From positions 1-44,033 of the forward strand of contig CAMDQN010000052.1 in the NCBI GenBank assembly GCA_945905925.1: DNA of 44,033 nt. The letters run 5' to 3'. Of the stretch, positions 12,254 through 22,505 are shown piece after piece. The stretch's first letter is position 1, and the number at the start of each line of letters is the position of its first letter. Source of the stretch: Singulisphaera sp. GP187 (lineage in GTDB: Bacteria > Planctomycetota > Planctomycetia > Gemmatales > Gemmataceae). The notes beneath the pieces are model-generated. The model worked only from the letters and a program-made list of their open reading frames with translations. It searched no databases and had not been told where the DNA came from. The translations under genes were made by a program, and so were the position numbers.

Positions 12254-12439
12254 GTGCAACGCGAACCGCTCTATCGCCGCGTTTTGGGAAACACCTTCGC
12301 GGACCTGCACCCGATCCTCCGTCGGTTCCACGAATCACCGGGCTGCACTGGAAGCGGACCGTGGCGAGCGCCGCGCGCTCGCCGAATTGTTTCGGCGCGG
12401 CGATGCGCGGACCATCTCCGCCCAACTCGTCGAGGTCGG
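12254..12439 (+). pseudogene. Remnant of a DUF4166-like gene start
   Basis: A GTG at 12254 behind GGGGAG starts VQREPLYRRVLGNTFADLHP followed by ILRRFHESPG. This resembles the N-terminus of DUF4166-type proteins (LYRR-x-LG-x-x-F-x-x-L). After about 32 residues the frame turns into arginine-rich noise, so only the first third of one exon-like segment survives. Another frame here (ADRGERRALAELFRRGDAR, about 12350-12405) looks protein-like and may belong to the next remnant, implying a frameshift. Confidence 0.4.
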
Positions 12440-12727
12440 ATGTGCCGCGTCAACGAGTACGCAACGGACATTGCAACAACGGAACTGCGCGAACTGTTCC
12501 GCAAAACGAACCCGACCTACGCGGTGCGAGCCGTCATCGCGCTGTGGCGGCTCGGCCGGACGCCGCTGGTGACCGACCAACTGCGCGAGGCGGTCGCCAC
12601 GAAGGACGACACATGGGGCTGGGCGGTACTTAGCGCGGTGGCGGACGGCGATCTCGCGCACGGGAAACCTCATAAACTGTCGCTCGTATTCGTCGCGGCG
12701 CCGCATCGGCTCTGCCGGCTTCGGTGA
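12440..12727 (+). pseudogene. HEAT-like repeat fragment, possibly frameshifted
   Basis: ATG 12440 opens about 95 residues containing helical, HEAT-like text (TTELRELFRKTNPTYAVRAV, ALWRLGRTPLVTDQLREAV) and ends in TGA at 12725-12727, overlapping the GTG of the next frame by the four bases GTGA. The upstream segment of the same kind of protein (ALAELFRRGDARTISAQL) lies in another frame, so I read this as a decaying HEAT-repeat gene. The GTGA overlap also allows a real, translationally coupled short gene. Confidence 0.4.
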
Positions 12728-14157
12728 ACATAAAGGTCTGGCTCATCAAGCACCAGCGGGCGCTGACCGGCACGAGTTTGGGGGACGCGAAGGCCGCCGT
12801 GGAGGGCGCCGTCGAACGGCTGACCACAACCGCGACGCGGGATGACAAGCGGAGGTGCATCCTCGACTATTTCCGCACGATCAACGGACCACCGACGTAC
12901 ATCACAGCCCTCCTCGAACACCGTGTGAGTTGGTATCGGTGGGCCGGACTCGAACTCCTCGACTCACGGTCTTGGGACGAGTCGGAACGCGGGTGCGAGC
13001 GCGTGCCCGAACTGGTCGCAGACCGCAGCGTGATCGTTCGCATGCGCGCTGCGAATGACCCACGGCTAAGAGCACTCACTATGCGGGTGATTGAACAACT
13101 CGTTCACCACTTCTGGGCGCGTGGCGCGCTGACCCGCGAGGAAGCGCTGTACCTCGTCAAGCACGGGTTCGCGCGCGAAAGCGACCTTCCCGGTCTCACC
13201 GAGCCGGGTCAGCCGATCGACCCCGCGACCTACGATCCGCCCTCCGCGGACCCGGAAGAGGACTACTACCGCGACCGCGACGAACGCGAAGTCGCCGACC
13301 TGAAGGCGCGCGCGGCCGAGAAGTTGGAAGACGAACTTGTCGGCCGCAACGCGGGCAGCCGTAAGGCCGGCGGCAAAAAGAAGAAGCCGACCGGGCACAA
13401 CCTCGCGCCCGCGTGCGAAACGATCGCCGCGCACGTCGCGGCCCGCGAGCCGTACCCGGCGCTGTGCGAGTTGGGCAACCGGCTGATGCCGTGCGCGACC
13501 TGGCGCGACGCGGCGAAGGCGATCGGCGCGGCCAAACCGGAATCGCTGGAAACGGCACTCGTGGGATTGCTCGCCGCCCGGCCACGGGCGCTCGGCGAAC
13601 TGTGGTTCTGGTTCGACCTGGAACCGCTCTACGAGTGGGCCGACGATAAGGAGAACGCCGGCCCGGTCGCGGACTCGCTCGCGAAGTTGCTCGCCGAAGA
13701 CAACCTCTCGCAAGTCGGCCGATTGGGGCAACTGCTGAAGGCCGCCGAGGTGCAGATGCTCCTCGACTTGCTGCCGGCGCGGCGCGCGTTCCTGAACCTG
13801 CTCCCGGTGCTGTATCACGCGCACTTCCCGAAGCTCGGGTTGTGGCTGGTGCCACCGACGGGCGCCGCGGTCGCGTGCTGGCCGGCGCTGCCGTGGTCGT
13901 TCGTGCTGGTGTACAACGCGAGGCAGGGCACCGCGGATCAGCCCCCGCAGGGCTACCTCGTGAACCCCGAATCCCTGCCGTACCGCGTTCTGCGGACCGC
14001 GCTGACGACGGCGCTGGCGATGGCCCCGGTCGCCATCCGCGAGTTGCTCATCCACCGGCTGCGCGAGCAAGCGGTTCCGGTCCCGGATCAGGCGCACTAC
14101 GAGAAGTACATCGTGTTCGAGCGCGACCTGTACTGCCCGTTCACCTGGCGCGTGTGA
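12724..14157 (+). CDS. Unidentified protein heading the MoxR/VWA cluster
   Basis: Up to 477 residues from GTG 12724. I do not recognise a named domain. The first 118 residues look HEAT-like and may belong to the decayed gene upstream. A second start, ATG 13081 (MRVIEQLVHHFWARGALTRE), gives 358 residues and may be the true one. Then come an acidic linker (PSADPEEDYYRDRDEREVAD), a lysine-rich patch (KAGGKKKKPTG) and a helical, hydrophobic C-terminal half ending FERDLYCPFTWRV. There is no signal peptide. The two AAA+ genes and the metallopeptidase/VWA gene follow on the same strand, so it is probably a client, adaptor or scaffold of that complex, by position only. A 37-bp inverted repeat begins two bases past its stop. 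Confidence 0.6.
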   Translation: MNIKVWLIKHQRALTGTSLGDAKAAVEGAVERLTTTATRDDKRRCILDYFRTINGPPTYITALLEHRVSWYRWAGLELLDSRSWDESERGCERVPELVADRSVIVRMRAANDPRLRALTMRVIEQLVHHFWARGALTREEALYLVKHGFARESDLPGLTEPGQPIDPATYDPPSADPEEDYYRDRDEREVADLKARAAEKLEDELVGRNAGSRKAGGKKKKPTGHNLAPACETIAAHVAAREPYPALCELGNRLMPCATWRDAAKAIGAAKPESLETALVGLLAARPRALGELWFWFDLEPLYEWADDKENAGPVADSLAKLLAEDNLSQVGRLGQLLKAAEVQMLLDLLPARRAFLNLLPVLYHAHFPKLGLWLVPPTGAAVACWPALPWSFVLVYNARQGTADQPPQGYLVNPESLPYRVLRTALTTALAMAPVAIRELLIHRLREQAVPVPDQAHYEKYIVFERDLYCPFTWRV

Positions 14158-14158
14158 A

Positions 14159-14274
14159 TGTAGGGTGGGACAAGGCTTTGCGCCGTCCCACGTTTCAGAG
14201 CGACGCGACCGCGATCCTGTTCGTACTTGACGGCGCAAAACGTGGGACGGCGCAAAGCCTTGTCCCACCCTACA
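14159..14274. repeat. Perfect 37-bp inverted repeat with 42-base loop
   Basis: The arm at 14159-14195 (starting TGTAGGGTGGGACAAGG) is exactly repeated in inverted orientation at 14238-14274. The motif GTAGGGTGGGACAAG occurs again at 28448-28462, so it belongs to a dispersed family. It sits in the gap between the first two genes of the MoxR cluster, where it may reduce read-through or stabilise the upstream mRNA. No T-run follows. Confidence 0.85.
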
Positions 14275-14286
14275 ACGGGAAACCCC

Positions 14287-15273
14287 ATGAGTTCCGGCCC
14301 GATCACCGAAACGGTCACGCTGTCGCAGGCACGCGACCTCATCCGTTGTCTGTCGCACGAGCAGAGTGTGTTGCTACTGTCGCCACCGGGCGTGGGCAAG
14401 TCCGACGTGGTGCGTCAGGCCGCCGCAGCCGAGGGCCTGGAGTGCAAGTCGCTGCTCGGTACGCAGATCGCGCCCGAGGACGTGTCCGGCGTGCCGCGAA
14501 TCGTCGGCGAGCGCAGCGTGTTCTGCCCGCCGCGAGTGCTGCTCCCAGAGAACGCTACCAAGTTCTGCCTCTTTCTCGACGAACTCCCGGCGTGCGCGCC
14601 GGACGTGCAGAAAGCGTTCTACTCGCTGCTGCTCGAACGCCGCATCGGGGAGTACCTGTTGCCCGAAGGGACGTGGGTCGTCGCGGCCGGCAACCGCGCC
14701 GAAGACAAGGCGCTGGTGCGTACCATTTCCAGCGCGTTGGTGAACCGTGTTCTGATTCTGAACGTCCGCATCGACGTGCCGGAGTGGCTCGCGTGGGCGC
14801 AGGCCAACAAGGTGCGCGATGACGTGGTGAAGTTCATCGAGCACCACCCGGAGGCGCTGCTGCGCCCAGTGCCGGACAAGGCGTCACCGTTCTCGACGCC
14901 GCGCGCGTGGGCGTCGCTGGGCCGCGCGATCGACCTCGTCGACGCCCGTGGCCAACTCACGCCGTCGCTGGTGCGCGCGCTTGCTGTCGGACGCGTGAGC
15001 GAGATCGACGCCCGCCTGTTTGCGGCCGTGTGGCTCGGCAACCCGGCCGAATCGACTTCTCTCGAAGAGAAACTGAACTGGCCGCTCGCCAAACTCGAAC
15101 TGTCCGTGCGCGCGACCAACTGCCTCGAAGCCGAGGGCATCACCCTCGTTCGCGAACTGGTGGTTCGCACCGACGACGAGTTGCTGGAGATTCGCAACTT
15201 CGGTGAGACGCCGCTCCGCGAAGTGAAAGCCAAACTCGCTCTGCATGGGTTGTGTCTGGGGATGAGGTTGTGA
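14287..15273 (+). CDS. MoxR-type AAA+ ATPase fused to an RNA polymerase alphaCTD-like domain
   Basis: A 328-residue protein. Residues 10-260 are a MoxR-type AAA+ ATPase: Walker A SPPGVGKS (32-39), Walker B FLDE (96-99), sensor 1 VVAAGN (Asn136) and an Arg after ALVN (154). Residues 263-328 read like the C-terminal domain of RNA polymerase alpha: [19 protein letters not shown], then [13 protein letters not shown] and a final GLCLGMRL. Of the E. coli DNA-contact residues, Arg265, Asn268, Cys269, Gly296 and Glu302 have matches (VRATNCL, NFG, E), while Lys298 and Ser299 become Thr and Pro. MoxR ATPases remodel or load partner proteins, commonly VWA proteins, and one is encoded at 16456. ATG 14287 lies after CGGGAAA. 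The fused tail may bind DNA or protein; that is inference. Confidence 0.85.
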
Positions 15274-15355: not shown

Positions 15356-16402
15356 ATGGCCCATCAATCTTCAAACGCCGTCACCCTCTCCGAGGCAAAG
15401 GAGCTAATCCGGTGCCTCGCGGACACCGAGAGCGTGCTGCTACTATCGCCGCCGGGCGTGGGCAAGTCCGATGTCGTGCGCGCCGCCGCGACCGAAGCTG
15501 GCCTCGAGTGCAAGTCGCTGCTCGGAACGCAGATCGCACCCGAAGACGTGTCCGGTGTGCCCAAGATCGTCGGCAACCGCGCCGTCTTCTGCCCGCCGCG
15601 ACTCCTGCTCCCGGACGACAACAAGCCGTTCTGCCTATTCCTCGACGAATTGCCGGCGTCGCCGCCCGAGGTGCAGAAAGCGTTCTACTCGTTACTCCTC
15701 GAACGACGTCTGGGCGAGTACCACCTGCCGCGCGGAACGTGGGTGGTCGCGGCCGGGAACCGCACCGAGGACCGGGCGCTGGTCCGCGCGCTGTCGAGCG
15801 CGCTGGTGAACCGCGTGTTCGTGCTGCCGGTGCGCGTCGATGTGGACGAATGGCTTACGTGGGCCGAACGGAACGGTGTGCGCGCCGAGGTGCGGTCGTT
15901 CGTGCGGCACGTCCCGTTCGCGCTGCAGCGCCCGGTGCCCGCGGACCCAGTACCGTTCTCGACGCCGCGCGCCTGGGCGATGCTCTCTCGCGACCTGCAC
16001 CTCGCGGAGAGCGCCGGGCGACTCTCACTTGAAGAGCGCCGGGCGTTGGCGTTCGGCCGACTCACCCCGCACGACGCCGGGTTGTTCTGCGCTCTCTGCG
16101 AGGACGGCCTGGCCACCCTCTGCTCCGCCGCTGACTACATTGACAACCCCGCACTGCTGCCGAAATCGGAGACGGCGATGTGGTTCGTGGTTAACCGCAT
16201 CCGGCAGGCGATCGAAGCGGATCAACTCCGCGCACCGGACGCCACAAAGGTGAACGCGTTTCTAGCCTCGGTCGGCGAAGAGTACCGGTTCGCGCTGATG
16301 CTCGATCACGTCGAACAGTGGTCCGCGCTCGGAGCGAACGAGGTGATGCTTGAGACGCTGAAGGAAGTAACGGGCCTTCCATCAGAAGCCATCGAATCGT
16401 AG
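15356..16402 (+). CDS. MoxR-type AAA+ ATPase, second paralogue
   Basis: A 348-residue AAA+ ATPase closely similar to the neighbour at 14287 over the ATPase core: Walker A SPPGVGKS (31-38), Walker B FLDE (about 95-98), sensor Asn in VVAAGN, and ALVNRV with the probable arginine finger. Stretches such as [20 protein letters not shown] are identical. After the core the two differ completely: here the last 85 residues are helical (MWFVVNRIRQAIEADQLR, VEQWSALGANEVMLETL) with no alphaCTD. Tandem duplication followed by divergence of the tails is the simplest reading, and a mixed ring is possible. ATG 15356 is chosen by comparison with the paralogue; no clear ribosome binding site is seen, and 15284 is an alternative start. 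Confidence 0.85.
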   Translation: MAHQSSNAVTLSEAKELIRCLADTESVLLLSPPGVGKSDVVRAAATEAGLECKSLLGTQIAPEDVSGVPKIVGNRAVFCPPRLLLPDDNKPFCLFLDELPASPPEVQKAFYSLLLERRLGEYHLPRGTWVVAAGNRTEDRALVRALSSALVNRVFVLPVRVDVDEWLTWAERNGVRAEVRSFVRHVPFALQRPVPADPVPFSTPRAWAMLSRDLHLAESAGRLSLEERRALAFGRLTPHDAGLFCALCEDGLATLCSAADYIDNPALLPKSETAMWFVVNRIRQAIEADQLRAPDATKVNAFLASVGEEYRFALMLDHVEQWSALGANEVMLETLKEVTGLPSEAIES

Positions 16403-16421
16403 CGAATCGCCCGGTTTTGCG

Positions 16422-16440
16422 TCGATCCCGCAGGGATCGA
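16422..16440. repeat. Hairpin ahead of the VWA gene
   Basis: TCGATCCC (16422-16429) and GGGATCGA (16433-16440) form an 8-bp stem with a three-base loop, ending directly before GGAG, the probable ribosome binding site of the gene at 16456. Confidence 0.55.
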
Positions 16441-16455
16441 GGAGCGGCAACTACC

Positions 16456-17778
16456 GTGGAACCGCCCACACCCGAGAAACTCGCCGCCACGAACGCGACC
16501 CGCGCGCTGAAGCTCGTTTCGGCCTCGCTTCCGCACCTGTCGGGGCTGTGCCACAGCGTGCGCGTCAAGGTAACGAAAAAGTATCCGGTCGCGGCCATCG
16601 GCGCGTCCGGGCTGATGCTCGTGAACCCGCGCGCGTTCTCCGAAACACCGCTCCCGGACCTCGTGTTCGTGGTCGCGCACGAACTCATGCACCTGGCGCT
16701 CGATACGTTCGGTCGCGGTGGGAACGCGAACCCGCACCTCGTCAACGTCGCGCACGATTACGTCATCAATGACATCCTCTCCGTGGAACTGAACCGCGGC
16801 GTTCCACTCGGCGGGCTGGTGCGCCCCGGCGCGCGTCAGGAGTCGCTCGAAACGCTGGTCACGGAACTCGCCCGCGACGGCACCACCAAACCGGGCGACT
16901 GCTGGACCGTCGCGCGGAAGAAGAAGCCGAAGCGTAAGAAGCAGCCGAAGAGCGCGATTCAGCAAGAACTCGAACGCGCGGGTCTGGTGCCGCCGGAGCC
17001 TGACGAACCCGACGAGGAGGACGACGACGAAGACGAGTGCCCTTCGGGGGACGCGATGACCGCCGAGGAGGAGGCCGAACTCGAACCAGATATCGGACCG
17101 AAAGAGCGCTCCGCGAGCCGCGACCGCGTGCGACGCGAAGCCGTGCGTTCGGTCACTCTGAAGGAATTGCGCAGTCAGATGGATCAGGCAACCGGGCACG
17201 GCGCGGGCGCGGACCCCGGCGCGTCGCGCACGCTCATGGAAGCGATCGCGACCGCGTACCAACCGCCGTGGCAGCTCGCGCTTCAACACTGGTTGGACGC
17301 CGTCTCGCCCGGCCCGCGCAGTTACGCGAAACCGAGCCGCCGCGGCGCCGAACGCGACGATGGCGTCATCCTCGCGGGGCGGAAGCGTGAGGGCTGGGCG
17401 CTGCACGTCGTCATGGACACGAGCGGTTCGATGATCAACACGCTGCCGCGCATCCTGGGTTTGCTCGCATCATTCTGTGAAGGCGCGGGCGTGAATCAGG
17501 TTCACATCATGCAGTGCGATGTGGGCGTAACGGCGGATGAGTGGATCGACCCGGCCGAACTCACGAGCTACAAGATCACCGGCTTCGGTGGCAGCGACAT
17601 GTCCCCGGCGATGGACGAACTGTCCGACGACCCGGAGGTGAACGCGGTGCTGGTGCTCACCGACGGTTACGTCTCGTACCCGAACGAAGAACCACCGTAC
17701 AGCGTGCTGTGGGGTTTGGTGGACGGCTACACCACGTTCAACCCGGCTTACGGCACCGTGGTGCATGTGAAGACGTAA
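16456..17778 (+). CDS. Metallopeptidase-like and VWA-like (DUF2201-type) protein
   Basis: A 440-residue cytoplasmic protein. The N-terminal domain carries a zinc-peptidase signature HELMH (75-79) with His100-Asp101 as a likely third ligand. A lysine-rich and then strongly acidic linker follows (about 155-215, EPDEPDEEDDDEDE). The C-terminal domain is VWA-like: its MIDAS begins VMDTSGSM (Asp321, Ser323, Ser325), with GFGGSDMSPAM and VLVLTDGYVSYP later. This pairing is the known partner type of MoxR ATPases, in which the ATPase acts on or through the VWA domain. GTG 16456 is chosen since the frame upstream begins at a TTG within a hairpin. It is the last gene of the cluster, and a terminator follows. 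Confidence 0.85.
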   Translation: MEPPTPEKLAATNATRALKLVSASLPHLSGLCHSVRVKVTKKYPVAAIGASGLMLVNPRAFSETPLPDLVFVVAHELMHLALDTFGRGGNANPHLVNVAHDYVINDILSVELNRGVPLGGLVRPGARQESLETLVTELARDGTTKPGDCWTVARKKKPKRKKQPKSAIQQELERAGLVPPEPDEPDEEDDDEDECPSGDAMTAEEEAELEPDIGPKERSASRDRVRREAVRSVTLKELRSQMDQATGHGAGADPGASRTLMEAIATAYQPPWQLALQHWLDAVSPGPRSYAKPSRRGAERDDGVILAGRKREGWALHVVMDTSGSMINTLPRILGLLASFCEGAGVNQVHIMQCDVGVTADEWIDPAELTSYKITGFGGSDMSPAMDELSDDPEVNAVLVLTDGYVSYPNEEPPYSVLWGLVDGYTTFNPAYGTVVHVKT

Positions 17779-19889: not shown

Positions 19890-22505
19890 TCACTCGCCCT
19901 CACTCTTCTCCGCCTCCACTTCCTTCACCGTTACTTTCTGCGTTTGAGTCACGTTGCCGGCTTTGAGCGTGATGGTGTACTCGCCGGGTTCCTTCACGTC
20001 GAACACGCACCGGTCCAGACCCGGCGTGTCGCGGCCCAGGTACAACCCGACCCGCTTACCCTTCGCGTCCGTACAGGTGACCTCGGTCTTCCCCGCGGTC
20101 TTGGCAGTCATGTAGAAGTGAACCGGGATGCCCTTCGGCGGGTTCGGCGCCTTGAACCCGAGGGGCGGCATCATCGGGCGCGCCGCCGATTTGTGGAGGT
20201 ACGCGGGCTTCACGTTGAACAAGTGGGCGTCCGCTTTCCACACCGGTTCCGCGAACTGCTCCAACGGCGCGATGTCCACCACCCAAATGCCGCGCCCGTG
20301 CGTGCCGATTACCAGTTCGCGCTCGCGCGGGTGAACGACAAGATCATCGACGCGAACCGTGGCCGGCATCCCGCTCTTGGCGACATGGTGCCACTTCGTG
20401 CCGGCGTCGAACGTGACGTACAGCCCCAGTTCGGTTCCCGCGAACAGCAGCAATTTGTTCTTCGACGACTGCCGCACCACCCCGACGACCGCGCCGTTGG
20501 GGAGGTTTGCCGAGAGTGATTTCCACGTCTCGCCGTAGTCGGTCGTGAGGAAGATGTACGGCTTGAAGTCGTCGTTGCGGTGCCGGTCGATGGCGACCAT
20601 CGCAGTGCCGGGGGTGAAGTGCGAGCACTCGATCTTCGCGACCGCACGAGCCTTCGGACCGGGGAGTTTATCGCTAACATCGATCCACTCTTTGCCATCG
20701 TTCTTGGAAACCCAAAGTTTTCCATCGTCGGTGCCGACCCACAACACGCCGGACTTCACCGGCGATTCGGTGAGCGCCAGGATGGTGTATCCTGAACCTC
20801 CCGCACCATCCTTCGGTGGTGTGGTCAGGTCCGTGCTGATCTTCGCCCACGCGTCGCCGCGATTCGTCGATTTGTAAAGGTGCTGCGCGCCGTAGTAGAG
20901 CGTCTTGGGGTCGTGCGGCGAGAGCAGAATCGGCGCGTTCCAGTTGTAACGGCTGACGGTGCCGCCTTTCGGCGCTGTCGGGCGAATGTTCCTGGTAGCC
21001 GGTCCCTTCGCGCCGCGCAGGTTGACGCGGGCGAGCGCGCCGTACTGACTTTCGAGGTACACCGTGTACGGGTCCGTGGGATCGACTGCGGCCTGAAAGC
21101 CGTCGCCGCCGAGCAGACGGCGCCAGTCCGCGAGCGTCACGCCGTCATCGAAGTGCGTCGCGGTCGTACCGCCCCAACTGCCGTTGTCCTGCAACCCGCC
21201 GTAGACGCGGTACGGCACGCGAGTGTCCACCGCGACACCGTAGAACTGGCTGATCACCAGCCCGCGGTTCGCGGTGAAGGTGGCACCGGTGTCCTTCGAG
21301 AGATACAGCCCGCCGTCGTTGCCGGCGAGGACGTGCTTCGAGTCCTTCGGGTTGACCCAGAGTGCATGGTGGTCGGCGTGAATGGTGCGTCCGATGACGG
21401 CGAACGTCAGCCCGCCGTCGGCGGAGGTTTGGAGTGTCACGCCGAGGACGTAGAGTCGTTTCTCGTCGCTGGGGTCAACGCGAATCTGACCGTAGTAGAA
21501 CGGTCGCGGGCACAAGTCGTTGATCTTCTTCCACGACTTGCCCTTGTCCGCAGAGCGGAACACGCCGCCGGTTTCGACCTTCCCAACCGCGCCGGGTTTG
21601 CCGTCCTTACTCACCATCGTGGCCGGTTGGCCGGCGTTCGTTAGCGCGCCTGCCGTCTCATTCGTCTGAACGATCGCGAACACGACATCGGGGTTCTTGC
21701 GGTACACGGCCAACCCGCAGCGGCCGTAGGAGTTCGCGGGCAAGCCGCCTTTCATCTTCTCCCACGTTTTGCCGGCGTCGGTCGTCTTGAACAGCCCACC
21801 GCTCTCGCCGGTCTGGACCCGCGGGCTACCACCCGAGAAACTGTCGCGGCGCACCTGCCAGGCCGCCGCGTAGAGCGTGTCCGGGTCAGCCGGGTCCATC
21901 TGCACGTCCACGAAGCCGGTGTTGTTGTCGATGAACTTGCTCTTTTCCCAGGTCTTGCCACCGTCGGTCGTCTTGAACAGCCCGCGCTCCGCGTTTGGGC
22001 CCCAGAAGTGCCCAATCGCGGCGACATAGACGATGTTGGGGTTTGTGGGGTGCACGACGATACGGCCGATGTGGTGCGTGTCCTTCAGCCCGCACGCGGC
22101 CCAGGTCTTGCCGCCGTCGGCGGACTTGTAGACGCCCTCGCCCCACGACACGGAGTTGCGCGGGTTGCCTTCGCCGGTGCCAACGTACACCACATCCGGT
22201 TTCCCCTGGCACACCGCGACTGCACCGATGCATTGTGTGGATTGGTCGTCGAAGACGGGCTTGAGCGTGACCCCGCCATCGGTGGTCTTCCACACGCCGC
22301 CGCCAGCGGTCGCAACGTAGTAGGTATCGGGGTTGCTTTCCAGGACCGCGAGTTCGGTAACGCGACCGCCCATGTTCGCGGGGCCGATGCACCGCGCCGA
22401 AAGTCCGGCGACGAGAGGTTCGTACTGGTCCGGTTGAGCGAACGCGACCGGAGCGCAAAATAAGACCAACACGACGACCGCGGCCCGTGCAAGGGGCTGA
22501 GACAT
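19890..22505 (-). CDS. Secreted Asp-box (BNR/sortilin-like) beta-propeller protein
   Basis: An 871-residue exported protein with a signal peptide (residues 1-23, ending AFA). It carries many Asp-box repeats of the form S/T-x-D-x-G-x-T-W: TTDGGKTW, SADGGKTW, TTDAGKTW, SADKGKSW, TTDYGETW. They form one or two propellers of the VPS10/sortilin or sialidase type, extending to about residue 740. The C-terminal 120 residues are a beta-rich domain (GEYTITLKAGNVTQTQKVTV). No catalytic residues of a sialidase are evident, so I do not call an enzyme. Planctomycetes have many such proteins, probably for surface binding or glycan handling. GGAG lies eight bases before ATG 22505. Confidence 0.8.
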   Translation of the reverse strand: MSQPLARAAVVVLVLFCAPVAFAQPDQYEPLVAGLSARCIGPANMGGRVTELAVLESNPDTYYVATAGGGVWKTTDGGVTLKPVFDDQSTQCIGAVAVCQGKPDVVYVGTGEGNPRNSVSWGEGVYKSADGGKTWAACGLKDTHHIGRIVVHPTNPNIVYVAAIGHFWGPNAERGLFKTTDGGKTWEKSKFIDNNTGFVDVQMDPADPDTLYAAAWQVRRDSFSGGSPRVQTGESGGLFKTTDAGKTWEKMKGGLPANSYGRCGLAVYRKNPDVVFAIVQTNETAGALTNAGQPATMVSKDGKPGAVGKVETGGVFRSADKGKSWKKINDLCPRPFYYGQIRVDPSDEKRLYVLGVTLQTSADGGLTFAVIGRTIHADHHALWVNPKDSKHVLAGNDGGLYLSKDTGATFTANRGLVISQFYGVAVDTRVPYRVYGGLQDNGSWGGTTATHFDDGVTLADWRRLLGGDGFQAAVDPTDPYTVYLESQYGALARVNLRGAKGPATRNIRPTAPKGGTVSRYNWNAPILLSPHDPKTLYYGAQHLYKSTNRGDAWAKISTDLTTPPKDGAGGSGYTILALTESPVKSGVLWVGTDDGKLWVSKNDGKEWIDVSDKLPGPKARAVAKIECSHFTPGTAMVAIDRHRNDDFKPYIFLTTDYGETWKSLSANLPNGAVVGVVRQSSKNKLLLFAGTELGLYVTFDAGTKWHHVAKSGMPATVRVDDLVVHPRERELVIGTHGRGIWVVDIAPLEQFAEPVWKADAHLFNVKPAYLHKSAARPMMPPLGFKAPNPPKGIPVHFYMTAKTAGKTEVTCTDAKGKRVGLYLGRDTPGLDRCVFDVKEPGEYTITLKAGNVTQTQKVTVKEVEAEKSEGE

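Follow-up and report, generated by a model that had tools for sequence, protein, structure and literature searches.

The ATP1 locus and its products

The stretch of DNA analysed here (the window, 44,033 nucleotides from Singulisphaera sp. GP187) carries the following genes and features around ATP1, the subject of this study.

12467..13050, forward strand: HEAT-like gene, present as two remnants (12467-12706 and 12733-13050) identified by tblastn with a 781-aa protein of the relative G012
13081..14157, forward strand: gene B, 358 aa, upstream of ATP1, no Pfam match at E<=1
14287..15273, forward strand: ATP1, a MoxR-type AAA+ ATPase with an RpoA-derived alphaCTD tail; the translated open reading frame is unbroken (328 aa plus stop); Pfam AAA_5 and RNA_pol_A_CTD matches, AlphaFold2/Foldseek, nine further fused orthologues
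14287..15042, forward strand: AAA+ core of ATP1, residues 1-252; the tail-less orthologues of G008 and G013 stop at this point
15052..15270, forward strand: alphaCTD tail of ATP1, residues 256-328; Pfam match at 15061-15240
15356..16402, forward strand: ATP2, a paralogous MoxR-type ATPase with a C-terminal extension of about 95 residues and no alphaCTD; Pfam AAA and AAA_5
16417..17778, forward strand: DUF2201 protein with a metallopeptidase-like domain (HELMH, residue 88) and a VWA-like domain (DTSGS, residue 334); PF13203 at 3.1e-16, PF09967 at 4.7e-11

ATP1 is a MoxR-type AAA+ ATPase, as the original prediction had proposed. Residues 28-147 match AAA_5 in Pfam (E 1.3e-7), Walker A (PPGVGKS) and Walker B (LFLDE) motifs can be read in the core, and the predicted fold is MoxR-like. 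The AlphaFold2 model of the whole protein has a mean pLDDT of 85.4, with block means of 88-94 across residues 261-328. When this model is compared with the PDB in Foldseek, NorQ, either alone or together with the VWA domain of NorD, occupies ranks 1-17 (best E 1.3e-10, at an identity of 15-17%), and Lon, RuvB and CbbQ rank below it, AfCbbQ2 being found at rank 22.

The last ~73 residues of ATP1 constitute a genuine C-terminal domain of RNA polymerase alpha. Residues 259-318 match RNA_pol_A_CTD (PF03118) with an E-value of 8.7e-20 and a score of 70.7 bits (cut-off 23.8). All eight NCBIfam matches of ATP1 at E<=0.01 are RpoA models; they span residues 248-327 at most and, because the match is restricted to the tail, all of them score below the whole-protein cut-off. 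Among PDB sequences, the tail retrieves 51 distinct entries at E<=0.01 (best 9.2e-14), 50 of which are named RNA polymerase alpha and the remaining one "DNA-directed RNA polymerase". The AlphaFold2 model of the isolated tail (pLDDT 83.7) possesses the two helix-hairpin-helix units of the alphaCTD fold and is superimposed by Foldseek onto the E. coli domain with an rmsd of 0.7 Å over 67 columns for 3n97_C (E 1.4e-7) and of 0.6 Å for 3k4g_A. Hence, the alphaCTD expected at the C-terminus of ATP1 is present, and neither of the outcomes that had been named as speaking against it, a missing profile match or a different fold, was encountered. The architecture of RpoA itself (alphaNTD, linker, alphaCTD) is not that of ATP1, whose N-terminal part is the AAA+ ATPase.

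Chance similarity and a frameshift artefact are ruled out as explanations of the tail by the Pfam and PDB matches, the predicted fold and the nine further genomes with the fusion. Internal stops are absent from the fused gene in all 10 genomes. Two of the fused carriers, G016 and G012, are assembled in only two and three contigs, respectively; the fusion is therefore no assembly artefact.

The neighbourhood proved to be as predicted. The next gene, ATP2, is a paralogue whose core is 67% identical to that of ATP1 and which bears the extension of about 95 residues in place of the alphaCTD. The protein encoded behind it combines an HExxH motif with a VWA-like domain, and a candidate VWA partner is thus encoded close to ATP1. 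DUF2201 (E<=1e-20) is found in all 11 ATP1 carriers of the genus and in none of its eight other genomes. The DUF2201 and ATP1 genes are more than 1 Mb apart in G016 and G013, and in G008 they occupy different contigs, so that this co-inheritance goes beyond mere linkage. ATP2 is present in 10 of the 11 carriers; in the exception, G010, the contigs with ATP1 and DUF2201 both end at the site where ATP2 is expected. Gene B occurs in nine of the 19 genus genomes, all nine of them ATP1 carriers, and in the remaining carriers, G002 and G003, the contig ends inside ATP1; no gene B was seen beside ATP1 in G116, a relative from another genus.

A HEAT-like gene lies upstream of gene B in five of the eight relatives whose upstream DNA was read, three of the five being cut by contig ends. 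The protein of G012 comprises 781 aa (L073:4299-6641), and the ATP1 locus retains two pieces of it in the region 12254-13050, for which reason this component is either dispensable or lost here. Its matches to HEAT profiles in Pfam are all under the cut-off (best E 0.0015). The 477-aa open reading frame 12724-14157 could be taken for one gene carrying an L7/L12-like domain; we rejected this reading, because the frame consists of the 3' end of the HEAT-like gene running on into gene B. Towards its C-terminus, the HEAT-like protein gives weak matches to the ribosomal L7/L12 C-terminal domain (E 0.003-0.009, under the cut-off) in all three versions scanned, at residues 668-702 of L073:4299-6641, residues 661-690 of L070:9062-11392 and residues 4-40 of the window's frame 12724-14154.

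Several further features of the locus were noted. An element of about 120 bases with long inverted ends separates gene B from ATP1 (14157-14276); it has 116 matches in the same genome, with both strands and half-elements counted, and looks like a dispersed palindromic repeat. In the tail-less genomes G008 and G013, a predicted membrane protein, by eye a candidate cation/proton antiporter, is encoded between ATP1 and ATP2 (L078:7998-9227 and L079:8545-9999), and the L078 frame overlaps the ATP1 stop. A repeat-rich gene is located on the opposite strand past ThrRS (19890-22505). Membership of the locus in a defence system is unsupported: at E<=0.001, PADLOC gave no match for ATP1, ATP2, DUF2201, gene B or the HEAT-like protein.

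Distribution and descent of the fusion

A survey of relatives for the same fusion and its neighbours, suggested along with the original prediction, covered 19 genomes of the genus, 95 of the family, 397 of the class and 392 of the phylum, with at most five candidates per genome scored in the class and phylum samples. ATP1 was found in 11 of the 19 genus genomes, with the tail in nine and tail-less in G008 and G013. Nine genomes beyond that of ATP1 itself possess the fusion, eight in the genus plus G116; in G002 and G003 the start of the fused gene falls past the contig end. Elsewhere in the family, G028, G069 and G070 each encode one close ATPase, 68-70% identical over the core and devoid of a tail. 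Three more genomes matched in the class sample at E<=1e-45 among the candidates scored (at most five per genome): G684, from another family, with a short tail-less ATP1-like gene and a long ATPase adjoining DUF2201; G673, with a long ATPase adjoining DUF2201; and G501, whose ATPase is 45% identical. The phylum sample yielded, at E<=1e-32 among the candidates scored (at most five per genome), no further fusion and four distant ATPases (36-47%). Altogether, 13 ATP1-type genes were found, and 10 of them have the tail; those of G008, G013 and G684 do not.

The C-terminal extension of about 95 residues is common to ATP2 and the ATPases of G028, G069, G070, G673 and the long copy of G684, and it is absent from ATP1. 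In a tree of the ATPase cores, the 12 ATP1 sequences of the genus plus G116 form a clade (100/98), to which the short G684 gene is sister (98/97). G116 diverges before the 11 genus members (95/92), among which the tail-less G008 and G013 group with the fused G004 (93/89); the root of this tree among the single ATPases is unsure. In our first core tree, for which distant MoxR genes served as the root, the position of the tail-less rows was not settled (p 0.298 for a single tailed clade in the AU test), and later trees added G116, G069 and G070 and then G684 and G673. In the enlarged tree, a single clade of tailed genes is likewise not rejected (p 0.0996).

Judged from these sequences, the simplest order of events is likely the following. 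An ATPase paired with DUF2201 would have been duplicated, giving rise to ATP1 and ATP2; the extension would then have been lost from ATP1 and kept in ATP2; the shortened ATP1 would have captured an alphaCTD; and the tail would later have become absent in G008 and G013. The tail-less copy of G684 looks ancestral. For G008 and G013, secondary loss of the tail is favoured, and only favoured, since a common clade of all tailed genes passes the AU test. The original prediction had left open whether a single ring member had acquired the domain or had alone retained it. Gain is the better reading, ATP1 being without the shared extension and its tail descended from RpoA.

To trace the donor, the tails were compared with 34 RpoA-type alphaCTDs of relatives and with 12 alphaCTDs from six tandem-domain proteins. 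A single clade (97/91) unites the 10 tails, apart from which the 12 tandem-type domains form a group of their own (90/81); in the drawn nine-tail tree, the tails (100/99) are placed among the 34 RpoA alphaCTDs. These trees rest on only 75 columns and their inner forks are weak. The tail also retains the lead-in of the RpoA alphaCTD, LExKLN, and most tails keep the terminal LGM of RpoA. The tail stems from a duplication of the 3' end of a Gemmataceae rpoA gene and is joined in frame to ATP1. An ancient helix-hairpin-helix look-alike is rejected, given that the tails cluster with the RpoA of the family and that the lead-in and terminus of RpoA are present. A candidate rpoA is found elsewhere in the same genome, where a 358-residue frame at G000:C140 contains an RpoA-type alphaCTD.

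Other alphaCTD proteins came to light in these genomes. ATP1's own genome encodes L002 (G000:C101:7570-8016), with two tandem alphaCTDs outside RpoA, and L002-like frames of about 450-550 residues are present in many genomes among the matches listed. A 148-aa protein of G004 (G004:C182, L114:995-1438) is another small alphaCTD fusion, the domain (Pfam E 2e-14) following a stretch that by eye resembles a ribbon-helix-helix. A 243-residue frame of G013 (G013:C3, L113:1512-2240) has a weaker alphaCTD match (E 4.9e-6). PglW-like proteins with NERD, kinase stretches and an alphaCTD-like domain are encoded at L111:689-4801 (G001) and L112:895-5142 (G013), and the former matches PADLOC PglW along its whole length.

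Constraint on the tail and its possible partners

In E. coli, R265 is the most important residue for DNA binding by alphaCTD; we take the DNA-contact positions, in E. coli numbering, to be 265, 268, 269, 294, 296, 298, 299 and 302. Arg265, Asn268, Cys269 and Gly296, the four residues to which attention had first been drawn, are all present in the ATP1 tail. Across the 10 tails, R265 and E302 are kept in every one, N294 in nine, C269 in eight, N268 in six and G296 in five, and position 299 is changed in three; each of the six named residues is found in all 34 RpoA proteins of relatives. With regard to the eight predicted DNA-contact residues as they occur in this RpoA, the tails of G018 and G010 keep all eight, those of ATP1 itself (G000), G012, G004, G003 and G116 keep seven, one keeps five and two keep four. 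Thr298 and Pro299 of the ATP1 tail, from which altered DNA binding had been predicted, are as described, but the implication is not supported, as all 34 RpoA proteins have Thr at both positions and only Pro299 is peculiar. Among the 10 tails, six of the eight DNA-contact positions vary, compared with 17 of the 33 other RpoA-invariant positions (Fisher two-sided p 0.43; one-sided p 0.32 in the nine-tail version). A selective loss of the DNA surface is consequently not significant, and this surface appears to be neither specially protected nor specially lost.

These data bear on the possibility that the ring is anchored at promoters or on the nucleoid by a tail with a persisting affinity for DNA (AT-rich or UP-like sites) or for sigma region 4, so that the remodeller would act on transcription complexes. 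We regard this as rather doubtful. It fits the invariance of R265 and E302, the near-invariance of N294, the two tails with a full set of contact residues and the five more, ATP1's included, with seven, as well as a predicted fold all but identical to that of alphaCTD in complex with DNA, as in 3n97; an acidic residue at position 261 in nine of the 10 tails fits as well. It is harder to reconcile with the changes at N268 (four of 10 tails), G296 (five), C269 (two) and position 299 (three), and with contact positions that are kept no better than others. As to sigma, position 259, presumably a sigma contact, is E in all 34 RpoA proteins and is acidic in four tails and non-acidic in six. DNA binding by the tail may persist all the same, because G018 and G010 keep eight of eight contact residues and five tails seven of eight. 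That a MoxR/VWA ring uses the acquired alphaCTD to reach transcription complexes, be it through DNA, sigma factor or alphaCTD-binding regulators, and thereby acts directly, as an ATP-driven remodeller, on transcription or its regulators, can be put forward only as a tentative proposal.

The tail is subject to purifying selection. Median NG86 dN/dS amounts to 0.152 (tail) and 0.113 (core) in 41 of 45 pairs, the other four having been left out for an undefined tail dS (one of 36 in the earlier nine-tail set), and the tail value lies below 0.5 in all 41 usable pairs. Saturation affects some of the dS values of the tail, one of which reaches 26; exclusion of those with dS >3, which retains 39 of the 45 pairs, gives 0.155. 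YN00 was usable for only nine of 36 pairs (medians 0.042 for the core and 0.158 for the tail) and is not relied on. At the same time, dN is 0.165 in the tail versus 0.084 in the core, about twice as high. A switch specific to the tail is seen at position 309, where eight tails have L, one V and one A, compared with E in 32, D in one and A in one of the RpoA proteins; the adjacent position 310 is H in nine of 10 tails versus R in 30 of 34 RpoA proteins. That a charged residue was replaced by a hydrophobic one, which was then kept, is suggestive of a newly acquired contact, whose other side could be a partner or the ATPase itself.

The fast dN of the tail and the two tail-less genus members also fit a weakly used or structural appendage, that is, an alphaCTD captured by chance after the extension had been lost and now capping or stabilising the C-terminal side of the ring. 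The tail-less ATP1 genes of G684, G008 and G013 agree with such an origin, and the hydrophobic residue at 309 could pack against the ATPase. We nonetheless think this unlikely in view of purifying selection on the tail in 10 genomes of two genera, the invariance of R265 and E302 and the complete lack of internal stops. A tail acting as an RpoA decoy that sequesters activators or other alphaCTD-binding factors is very improbable: its derivation from the family's own RpoA and the presence of D287 and E288, which lie on the activator-facing surface, in nine of nine tails would be in keeping with it, but no regulator is tied to the locus and a decoy would presumably have no need of an ATPase.

A putative docking arm and its relation to known systems

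The RNA polymerase alphaCTD is a classic docking domain; to our knowledge, its traceable recent transfer to an unrelated machine is unusual. By analogy, we propose a remodelling system in which ATP1 and a second MoxR-type AAA+ protein have DUF2201 as partner and in which the tail of ATP1 serves as an accessory docking arm, a reading to which we assign a probability of about 0.5. ATP1, with or without ATP2 in the same ring, would drive DUF2201 in the manner of NorQ and NorD. Each ATP1 subunit would carry the alphaCTD as an arm on its C-terminal side, and this arm would bring the ring to a client or adaptor by protein-protein contact, possibly to a factor that normally recognises the alphaCTD of RpoA. 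For the target of the arm, a protein client or adaptor has even odds in our estimation and is more likely than sequence-specific promoter DNA. Because the systems of G684, G008 and G013 are tail-less, the distribution suggests a role for the tail in targeting or tuning the machine, whose core action would proceed without it. Against a docking arm for proteins count the seven tails that keep seven or eight of the DNA-contact residues, the invariance of R265, a tail dN about twice that of the core, the two genus members without a tail and the chance that residue 309 packs against the ATPase itself.

As the donor (RpoA), the short tail-less ATP1 (G684), the long form (ATP2 and the single ATPases) and the tail-less genus members are all available for comparison, the effect of adding a docking domain to an AAA+ protein is directly testable. 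Should the tail indeed make contact with the transcription machinery, protein remodelling would be coupled to transcription in a new way.

With NorQ/NorD and CbbQ/CbbO, ATP1 shares a MoxR-type AAA+ core, Walker motifs and a VWA-domain gene close by. For NorQD, the C-terminal opening of the hexameric NorQ ring is described as the seat of NorD's VWA domain, for which a rotation in the pore at each nucleotide binding event is proposed (PMC13036017). The ATP1 locus differs from both systems in its two paralogous ATPases, a DUF2201 protein with HExxH as the putative partner, gene B and an alphaCTD on one of the ATPases; moreover, the identity of ATP1 to NorQ is only 15-17%.

The tail agrees with the RpoA alphaCTD (PF03118) in sequence, predicted fold and descent; in contrast to it, the tail follows almost directly after an ATPase core without alphaNTD, and N268 and G296 are not conserved across the tail clade. 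An RNA-polymerase-alpha-CTD-like domain is also contained in PglW of type 2 BREX, as stated in parts of an earlier report (PMC12839542). PglW (NERD, kinase, alphaCTD-like domain, wHTHs) is thus likewise a multidomain protein with such a domain outside RpoA, but the PglW-like domains are divergent (Pfam E 2e-10 and 1e-9 versus 8.7e-20 for ATP1), internal, set in an anti-phage context and part of an unrelated host protein.

A third point of comparison is the catalogue PMC7159879, which we take to be Kaur et al. 2020. According to sections of its text, MoxR-vWA ternary systems (bpMoxR, VMAP, FtsH, iSTAND) occur in planctomycetes among others (PMC7159879), and the ATP1 locus, like the systems described there, pairs MoxR with vWA. 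ATP1 scores 21.0 bits with the bpMoxR profile, under its cut-off of 27, and the terms "DUF2201" and "RNA polymerase" are absent from the main text of that paper. Among the papers listed by a literature search, with subscription papers and bioRxiv mostly outside its reach, none dealt with a MoxR-alphaCTD fusion, and no paper on DUF2201 with MoxR was found. Collectively, MoxR/VWA systems and alphaCTD-like domains outside RpoA are already known, and the ATP1 locus joins the two as a MoxR/VWA system with a captured RpoA domain.
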